This document shows positions 20,701 through 23,700 of a stretch of 64,000 bases of DNA, one piece after another (positions within the stretch are counted from its first letter, which is position 1; every line of letters begins with the position of its first letter). The stretch is from Hyperoplus lanceolatus (taxonomy: Eukaryota > Chordata > Actinopteri > Uranoscopiformes > Ammodytidae). The position numbers and the translations under genes are program-made. The stretch lies in NCBI GenBank assembly GCA_026929865.2, contig CM049395.1, positions 17,571,001 to 17,635,000 on the forward strand. The letters run 5' to 3'. Below the pieces are notes generated by a model. It ran no database searches, was not told the origin of the DNA, and worked only from the letters and a program-made list of their open reading frames with translations.

Positions 20701-23700
20701 TCTGAACCAAAGCAAGTGAACTAGCGGACTTTCCAAGTGTGAATACACCCTAAGGCTACAATATTTTTACAAGATTACTAAATAAAAAGTATCTTATCTT
20801 ATGACAGAATAGAAAAGGCAGTTAATTTTATTTAATCAGAAGTATTTTCTTTCTCCAGAGGCACAAGTGGAGCTGAGTGCAGACAATCCCGGTGGCTCTG
20901 CAGAGAAGGAGCTCTCCACTTCCTCTTTCCCAGGCCCTGCTTTCTCCTCCACTCAGAGCCCTGCAGCCCTGCAGCCCACATCCATGGAGCAGGTAAGGGC
21001 CGTGTCACAGCTTACGTTCCAAGAAAATTTAAACAATAAATAGCATCCAATGCTTTTTCACCTGTCATGGGACAATATGAAAATCTCATCTACCGATGAT
21101 CCTGCCCAACATAATTTATTTATAGTATTATTATCCAAACAATTATCAGAATTTACCTAACACTCTTAACATGGTTTCAAGACAAAGAAAGGAAGAAACA
21201 TAATTATAAGGAAGGAAACATGTTTTCTTCATGGTAAACAGTCAAACAATCTTAGGAATTACTAATCAATAACAACTGTACATAAAAGAGCAAGTCACTC
21301 ACGTTAGGATATTCACAATTTTTGATAGTTGAAATTCACCACACATTGTTAGTTTTTTATGGCGATTAGTGATCAAATCTTTTATCCTCATATATATTTT
21401 GCATTGGCTTGCTTGTTAACTGTCTGTTGCTGCAAAATGAGATTGAGTTTTCTCCCAGTTGAGTTCTTCTTTTTGATCACAGTTGGAGGAGGCCAAGGAT
21501 AGTTTTGATGTGGATGTTGCCGTCACCAACCCTGAGAAAATTGGTCAGTTTCTTTTATTGTCTCATTTTCAGTTCCTTCAGATGTTATTATTTGTAAAGA
21601 AAATGTATTATTAACATGGAATAAAGACCTCATTTATTCTTGTCTTTTTTTCAATGTTTCTATCCTTGTAGGAGATGGCATGAATGCATATGTGGCCTAC
21701 AAAGTATCCACCAGGGTCTGTATTCAAGCTTGTGGTGATACATATATTTTGTGTATTTTTACGTGGTTCCTTAAGCTGCTAGTATGTCTAAATCTTCACT
21801 ATTGTTTCAAGTATATGGTTTTCAACTTTTGTCCCCTTCTAGTCAACTGTCCCTGTCTCTGCTCTCAGACGTCCTTGGCTATGTTCAGGAGTAAAGTTTT
21901 CACTGTGAGGAGGCGTTACAGCGACTTCCTGGGTCTTTATGAGAGGCTGTCTGTCAAGCAGTCACTCCAGGGCTGCATTATTCCACCCCCGCCTGAGAAA
22001 AGTGTTGTAGGTGCGTGTCTTGGCCTCTTTTTCTTAACTGTTTTTTTTCCTTTGCGATTTGTCTGCTTTTGCATTTTTTGACTTTCATTGGGATCAACAG
22101 GAATGACCAAAATGAAGGTGGGAATGGACGACCCTTCATCAGTGGAGTTTGTGGAGCGAAGAAGATCAGCTCTGGAGAGGCAAGGATCCAAACATGTTTC
22201 ATACAGTGACATTTTAAATAAGATGATGACATATGTATGTTTCTGTTCCCTCTGAGATTTGTGTGTGTTGTGTGCATGTTATATGTGTACGTTTTATTTC
22301 TTCATCTTGCTGGCCTGCCTGTATGTTTTTGTTTTTCATTTTAGGTATCTTCAGAGAATAGTTTCTCACCCATCTATACTACAAGATCCCGATGTCCGTG
22401 ACTTCTTGGAGAAAGAAGATGTGAGTGTTTTTAAGATACTACAAGATTTTCTTATAGCAATAAGCTAGAACATGACTTCATACACGTTTCAGATTTTGTT
22501 CCTCGCCTTGAGAAGGAATGGTCCGCTGAGTTTTTGTTTAAAAATATTTAAAAAAATTATTATTCTTGAGTGACATATTGACAGAGTAACCCAAATGCTG
22601 TGTGTGTGTGTGTGTGTGTGTGTGTGTGTGTGTGTGTGTGTGTGTGTGTGTGTGTGTGTGTGTGTGTGTGTGTGTGTGTGTGTGTGTGTGTGTGTGTGTG
22701 TGTGTGTGTGTGTGTGTGTGTGTGTGTGTGTGTGTGTGTGTGTGTGTGTGTGTGTGTGTGTGTGTGTGTTTTTTCAGCTACCCAGAGCGAACACCCAGGC
22801 GCTGAGTGGAGCTGGCTTCCTCAAAATGTTCAATAAGGCATCAGATGCTGTCAACAAGATGACCATCAAGATGAATGAGTCTGACACTGTAAGGGGACTA
22901 GTGTGTCTGTGGCCTGCCTATGGACATCCATTTGATCATTCTATCAATGCATTGTTGAAATAACCCTGATAGATTGGTCAAGGCGCCAGAATAAAGTAGG
23001 ATTGTGGGATATAAAATGTATAAATCATGAGAAGATCATTTTAATATAAAACCTGATAACATGAACTGTCTTGTATTTCTGATTATTTTTCAATCTATAC
23101 TTCCTGGGTATTGATTTTTTTTACATTTACTCACTGCCTTTTAAAATTTCTATAGACCTATGCACAGGATGATAACTTCATATCATGACTGATTTGTATG
23201 ATTTGTTTTGGAAGAATGTGAAGAAACATCTTGAGTAACTAATGCAATTTAAAACATGTATTTATTGTTTGAGCTGCAATTATACAAAGGATTAAACTAA
23301 GTTCCAATCATATTTGTTATTGTTATATATTTTATATTTTATTCAGTGGTTTGAGGACAAGTTCCAGGAGGTGGACAGCGAGGAGCAGCAGCTGAGGAAG
23401 CTTCATGCCTTGGTTGATTCCCTGGTCAATCACAGGAAGGGTGAGCTACATCTGCCTTTCATGAATTTTACTGATAATATGGCTTTCCTGTTCATTTATT
23501 CCTTGCTCATTTTGTGTTAAGATGCATTAAGTTATGTAGGCCTATTTGTAAGCTTGACAACGCAATTAAACTTTCAAATTTTGTTTTTGCTTTCTTCTTT
23601 TCACAACCGACCCCTTGATGGGGTTGGTCTTCACAATGTGTCAGGGTGTCTTTGATGATTAATTTCTTCTTTATTACAATAAGTTGGAAACACATTTCAA

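Follow-up and report, generated by a model that had tools for sequence, protein, structure and literature searches.

Coding exon 9 of the membrane-trafficking gene snx1 in Hyperoplus lanceolatus follows an acceptor region made of 85 TG units and six T, and the locus raises the question of how such an exon is spliced and whether the repeat could alter the SNX1 protein. The first-pass annotation had answered by analogy with CFTR, proposing that the repeat could cause exon skipping and make the proportions of two SNX1 forms differ from one individual to another. The analysis covered a window of 64,000 nucleotides, which is the whole stretch of DNA that was studied. Positions are those of the window, and the features of snx1 lie on its forward strand.

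Joining of 15 coding exons gave a single open frame of 521 amino acids, with the ATG at 17653 and the stop at 32162 (coding region 17653..32162). The product was matched by phmmer to Sorting nexin-1 chains with an E-value of 2.3e-202 over residues 4-520, nearly its full length, and contains the Pfam domains Sorting_nexin (N-terminal), PX and Vps5 (BAR type), so that both the domain set and the best full-length match identify it as SNX1. Comparison of the whole protein with viral and prokaryotic contig collections gave 8 and 26 pattern matches, respectively, and 0 confirmed relatives. An ORF at 58715-59032 contains a stretch that resembles the N terminus of casein kinase I gamma, with a PDB match to CK1 gamma-3 (E 1.3e-11) and no Pfam hit. 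Human SNX1 also has CSNK1G1 in its vicinity, and this neighbour would fit SNX1 orthology. In addition, the donor of intron 7 (22180-22344), one exon 5' of the TG acceptor, is a GC donor (GAG/gcaagg), and both the reading frame and the SNX1 match agree with a GC-AG intron.

Exon 8 (22345..22420) ends at the donor GAT/gtgagt and is followed by intron 8, of 357 nt (22421..22777). The array (22599..22768) consists of 85 uninterrupted TG units, 170 nt in all, and is followed by T6 (22769-22774) and the CAG acceptor (22775-22777; together 22769..22777). Exon 9 (22778..22888) is 111 nt long, has phase 0 at both ends, encodes residues 270-306 and ends at the donor gtaagg. If it were skipped, exon 10 (23347..23440) would be the in-frame partner of exon 8. 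The tract of 85 pure TG units, six T, CAG and exon 9 that the first-pass annotation had described was thus confirmed at 22599-22777, and exon joining also confirmed the end of exon 8 at 22420 and the start of exon 10 at 23347. Exon 9 is so numbered among the coding exons, starting with that of the ATG at 17653.

No other TG/CA array of the window is as long, the second longest pure run having 36 units. Assembly of long, pure dinucleotide arrays is prone to error, and an artefact, with a real tract far shorter, was considered. It was judged very improbable, since the window contains 0 N and further long arrays of varied lengths were assembled in it. A wrong length would also leave the order of the elements unchanged. 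When a 171-nt array was placed at random in those snx1 introns whose length allows it (10 of the 14), its end lay at most 8 nt from the acceptor in 90 of 10,708 placements (0.84%), a figure that is post hoc, refers to a single gene and ignores orientation. According to the cited passages, UG repeats of at least 12 units are enriched near human splice sites (PMC12276007) and fish introns hold thousands of matches to pUG sequences, with CA repeats alongside (PMC12962679), so that one case in a genome is unsurprising. The longest UG run stated there for human has 61 repeats (PMC12276007). A UG tract near an acceptor is of a known kind, and its length of 85 repeats exceeds the human range. Literature on simple repeats at fish acceptors included, by title, no snx1 case.

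Other repetitive sequences were observed in the same window. At 12246-15111, 5' of snx1, 82 inverted-repeat pairs were detected; among the best 25 of the 82, the longest was 283 nt at 98%, with another of 232 nt at 97%, and in several of the listed pairs the left arm contains CA arrays and the right arm TG arrays. Two consecutive long ORFs at 48702-53960 encode 314 amino acids, with a coiled-coil match below cutoff, and 1272 amino acids, with endonuclease, reverse transcriptase and zf-RVT domains; from these domains, the region resembles a non-LTR retrotransposon whose frames are open. An ORF on the reverse strand at 4567-5793 (Pfam RNase_H, E 6.6e-13) is perhaps part of another retroelement.

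What would be lost with exon 9 was studied at the protein level. Its 37 residues are identical at 31/37 positions to 8afz_A and at 32/37 to 7d6d_A, two PDB Sorting nexin-1 chains that we take to be human and mouse. Among 504 stretches of 18 residues, the one from GAGFLKMF ranks 14th by hydrophobic moment, and the match to 4fzs, a crystallised BAR construct, begins at residue 300. In the passages of PMC10352136 available, the amphipathic helix linking PX to BAR is described as inserting into the membrane, with printed ranges of 168-206 for SNX1 and 271-306 for SNX5. Judging from the domain positions in our product, we think that the two names are probably swapped there and that 271-306 belongs to SNX1; that range is nearly the same as the exon 9 residues 270-306. 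By these alignments, exon 9 is assigned to the PX-BAR amphipathic linker plus the beginning of the BAR construct that was crystallised.

The protein argument of the first-pass annotation is therefore sound: skipping would remove 111 nt with phase 0 at both sides, an in-frame loss of 37 residues, and the identification of these residues as the amphipathic PX-BAR linker agrees with two PDB SNX1 matches and with the range in PMC10352136 as read above. An SNX1 form without the exon 9 segment was not present in the literature searched, as far as the passages retrieved extend and in a search that was non-exhaustive. The isoform matches in PMC2654914 and PMC11630588 concerned SNX17 and SNX14, and that in PMC8280035 was only a reference on SNX27. 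PMC8268681 lists SNX1 as a gene with isoform switching in melanoma, in passages that name no exon.

The CFTR parallel was then weighed on the nucleotide level. As in CFTR intron 8, a UG repeat and then a short U tract stand directly 5' of the AG, and TDP-43 binding is expected. If the parallel held, TDP-43 would block the acceptor, exon 9 would be skipped in frame and the repeat length would set the ratio of SNX1 forms between individuals. The shared (TG)n-Tn-AG order, the symmetry of exon 9 and a UG repeat far longer than in CFTR (85 repeats against about 11-13) speak for it; the two sites differ in their ends, which are Tn-AACAG in CFTR and T6-CAG in snx1. According to the passages of PMC12171016 cited here, skipping of CFTR exon 9 needs TDP-43 on the UG repeat together with hnRNP A1, bound where the exon begins to a bipartite silencer with the sequence CAGGGA ... 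TGGGGAAT. In the TG11-T5 minigene of that work, skipping was unaffected by the mildest silencer change, nearly disappeared with a stronger one and was abolished by the strongest as well as by the deletion. Between 22775 and 22888, none of the eight hnRNP A1-like or G-run motifs that made up the search (GGGGAA, TGGGGA, CAGGGA, TAGGG, TAGG, TAGA, GGGG and AGGG, both silencer halves included) was found. The CFTR exon thus carries the silencer required there, and snx1 exon 9, whose skipping is hypothetical, does not. This absence makes a CFTR-type switch less likely, while the relevance of UG binding is unaffected.

Acceptor strength was compared using a 3' splice-site matrix, which is a crude measure. 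The exon 9 acceptor scored 7.19, rank 8 of the 14 acceptors of snx1, in a gene range from -3.47 to 13.91. The lowest value belongs to the exon 11 acceptor (23870-23890), where an A8 run lies just 5' of CCTCAG. On the same matrix, CFTR T5 scored 8.64 and T7 11.02. Within the limits of this crude measure, a score slightly under that of CFTR T5 favours the first-pass annotation, and the middle rank within snx1 goes against it. The exon 10 acceptor, which would be the competitor in skipping, scored 5.71 and is weaker than that of exon 9. Cryptic acceptors were rejected, since the true site outscores all others among the 24 AGs of intron 8 and exon 9; the second best, 8 nt into exon 9, scored 6.38 and would shift the frame. 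Exon symmetry was also rejected as a sign of a designed cassette, since 4 of the 13 internal snx1 exons are multiples of 3. Moreover, loss of tubulation is the expected consequence for a helix-less SNX1, to judge from the part of PMC10352136 cited above, and the literature search described above, within its scope, also argues against such a form. Taken together, the order of the elements stands, and the specific CFTR mechanism is not supported; we regard a CFTR-like control of the SNX1 forms as unlikely.

A further feature, absent from the first-pass annotation, is the position of the branch point. No A is present in 22597-22774 and no AG in the tract, the last A before the tract being 22595, at -183 from exon 9, so that no ordinary branch point can lie nearer than 183 nt. 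The AG exclusion zone (AGEZ) of exon 9, at 22587..22777, is 191 nt long, above the 150 nt taken as the lower limit of a long zone, and is the longest among the 14 acceptors. The second longest, that of exon 15 with 165 nt, includes a good candidate branch point at -27. With a yUnAy matrix, which gives rough scores, no candidate of exon 9 between -61 and -14 scored above -4.54; in the same zone, the best candidates of the remaining 13 acceptors scored 2.92 to 6.15. A cluster of predicted branch points was located by the same matrix at 22577..22594, near the 5' end of the AGEZ. It contains A22581 (ATTGAC, score 5.05) at -197, just outside the AGEZ, and A22589 (AGTAAC, score 4.40) at -189. As described in PMC2991248, in the portion cited, branch candidates reach 7-8 nt 5' of the AG that defines the AGEZ, and A22581 is therefore covered. 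A higher branch score, 6.15, was found at 22480 (-298), with AGs intervening before exon 9. Without the 170-nt array, A22581 and A22589 would lie at -27 and -19. This is an ordinary spacing, the human distance between branch point and 3' splice site being given as 19-23 nt in the passage of PMC9508853 cited. The lack of a nearby branch point is a stronger argument for unusual splicing than the CFTR parallel.

These data suggest that the segment of intron 8 from the branch point to the AG was lengthened by growth of a TG microsatellite and that the distant predicted branch point is used, an explanation which we prefer to the others and to which we give about an even chance of being right. A short ancestral TG repeat would have grown between the branch A, either 22589 or 22581, and the AG, placing the branch A 189 or 197 nt from exon 9. 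Growth would be tolerated at this place because it creates no competing AG and no new branch A; since TG adds neither, the first-AG rule picks the correct acceptor at any array length. The spacer would be coated by TDP-43, a UG-binding protein, at 12 nt per copy and up to about 14 copies. According to a preprint (PMC12697283, passages cited), TDP-43 covers 12 nt of UG and its binding is kinetically favoured over quadruplex folding. The distance itself would be the cost, with splicing efficiency dropping modestly as the array lengthens. A minor share of transcripts would then be lost by exon 9 skipping, in frame, or by retention of intron 8, which places an in-frame TAG at 22466-22468. Since exon 9 is conserved and encodes an important membrane-inserting linker, we expect it to be included normally in most transcripts, with some loss that depends on array length, and no dedicated isoform switch. 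As an alternative to the distant A, a non-A branch point in or beside the tract is possible.

Figures on human exons are available for the cost of distance, and they are here carried to another vertebrate. In the passages cited, exons with an AGEZ of at least 150 nt were observed as cassettes in 32.5% of cases (n = 197), against 19.8% overall (PMC1431707), and the distance from branch point to 3' splice site was correlated with skipping (PMC2991248). They argue against a fully neutral microsatellite, in which T6-CAG and the alternating U would be adequate, a distant or non-canonical branch point would work without loss and exon 9 would be constitutive at every length. A further point against it is that exon 9 starts after 182 nt without any A. 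The middle rank of the acceptor within snx1 and its first place among the 24 AGs fit neutrality, as does the exon 9 donor, gtaagg, and the high identity of exon 9 to both PDB chains implies selection for inclusion. Neutrality at all lengths is a possible outcome, although it was judged clearly less probable than a spacer with some cost.

The preferred arrangement, a distant branch point with a long spacer, has known counterparts. Alpha-tropomyosin exon 3, PTB exon 11 and MBNL1 exon 9 also have a long AGEZ with a branch point near its 5' end; in snx1, the spacer is a pure TG microsatellite, the branch point is predicted and alternative splicing is hypothetical. For MBNL1 exon 9, the cited part of PMC2991248 gives an AGEZ of 224 and a mapped branch point at -229, tggtaAcaa, which resembles gagtaAccc around A22589 of snx1. 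The table of the same paper gives further branch points of this exon at -31 and -41, so a long AGEZ does not compel the use of a distant one. A length-variable simple repeat near an acceptor, there a poly(T), is also present in canine merle PMEL, where, in the passages of PMC7349775 cited, it is described as acting through an excessive distance between the branch point region and the splice site. The merle repeat differs in being a SINE-borne mononucleotide run with a cryptic acceptor and a reported change of splicing and phenotype. Since a length-variable repeat alters splicing there, the idea of individual variation is reasonable, though the arrangement is another one.

Fish introns with AC/GT bridging offer a different way of using a terminal UG tract. 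According to passages of PMC12962679 and PMC7404189, which cite Lin et al. for this class, a 5' CA tract pairs with the 3' UG tract and U2AF2 becomes dispensable. Intron 8 of snx1 shares the 3' UG tract, which is long, ends the intron and likewise occurs in a fish. It differs in lacking the 5' partner: no CA or AC run of at least 4 units is present in intron 8, and from the start to the stop codon of snx1 the only CA run of at least 4 units is CACACACACA at 24201, in intron 11, with five units. With no complementary CA tract in intron 8, bridging was rejected for this allele, and we consider it extremely improbable for the intron. A duplex between the tract and other parts of intron 8 was likewise discarded as weak. 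The mean pairing probability of tract bases was 0.26 with the upstream intron and 0.005 within the tract, as calculated with ViennaRNA on 22391-22800 under a model that leaves out quadruplexes.

Quadruplex folding of the UG repeat was evaluated as a means of shortening the distance. Like the pUG sequences described, the snx1 tract lies near a 3' splice site and has at least 12 UG repeats in an unbroken run, and its 85 repeats, against a human maximum of 61 (PMC12276007, passages cited), exceed the threshold of at least 11.5-12 GU repeats for a pUG fold (PMC12962679, passages cited); the snx1 fold itself is predicted. By length, up to seven tandem folds of 24 nt would fit, taking up 168 of the 170 nt. 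By this arithmetic, the branch point would return to about 21 nt, counted from A22589 to exon 9, with TDP-43 as a competitor. The sources cited state that folds need 11.5-12 repeats (PMC12962679), that at least 24 repeats give compact double folds of 12 repeats each (PMC12276007) and that, in yeasts, RNA folding between branch point and 3' splice site can cut the effective distance (PMC9508853). Against this, the in vitro folding half-life is given as at least 13 min (PMC12276007), and TDP-43 binds unfolded UG, prevents folding and is kinetically favoured (PMC12697283, preprint). Slow folding and this kinetic advantage, as far as the cited passages describe them, make folding before splicing doubtful. 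More than two tandem folds are absent from the passages of PMC12962679 and PMC12276007 consulted, and a shortened distance is trivially true for any removal of the array. Compaction by pUG folds was accordingly judged highly improbable.

The same elements could be combined in a graded manner. Each TG unit would add 2 nt, the balance of TDP-43 coating and pUG folding would set the effective distance from the branch point to the acceptor AG, and allele length, together with temperature or the amount of TDP-43, would thereby set the share of helix-less SNX1. Taken as a whole, this scheme appears very unlikely. If it were true, endosomal tubulation would differ between individuals.

The (TG)85 array of snx1 is well placed and probably an ordinary microsatellite. 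If, as preferred here, it acts as a spacer that separates a distant branch point from the acceptor AG, its alleles would form a natural series for how far a branch point can shift before splicing suffers. Any effect of length would have a clear protein consequence, since exon 9 encodes the membrane-shaping linker of SNX1.
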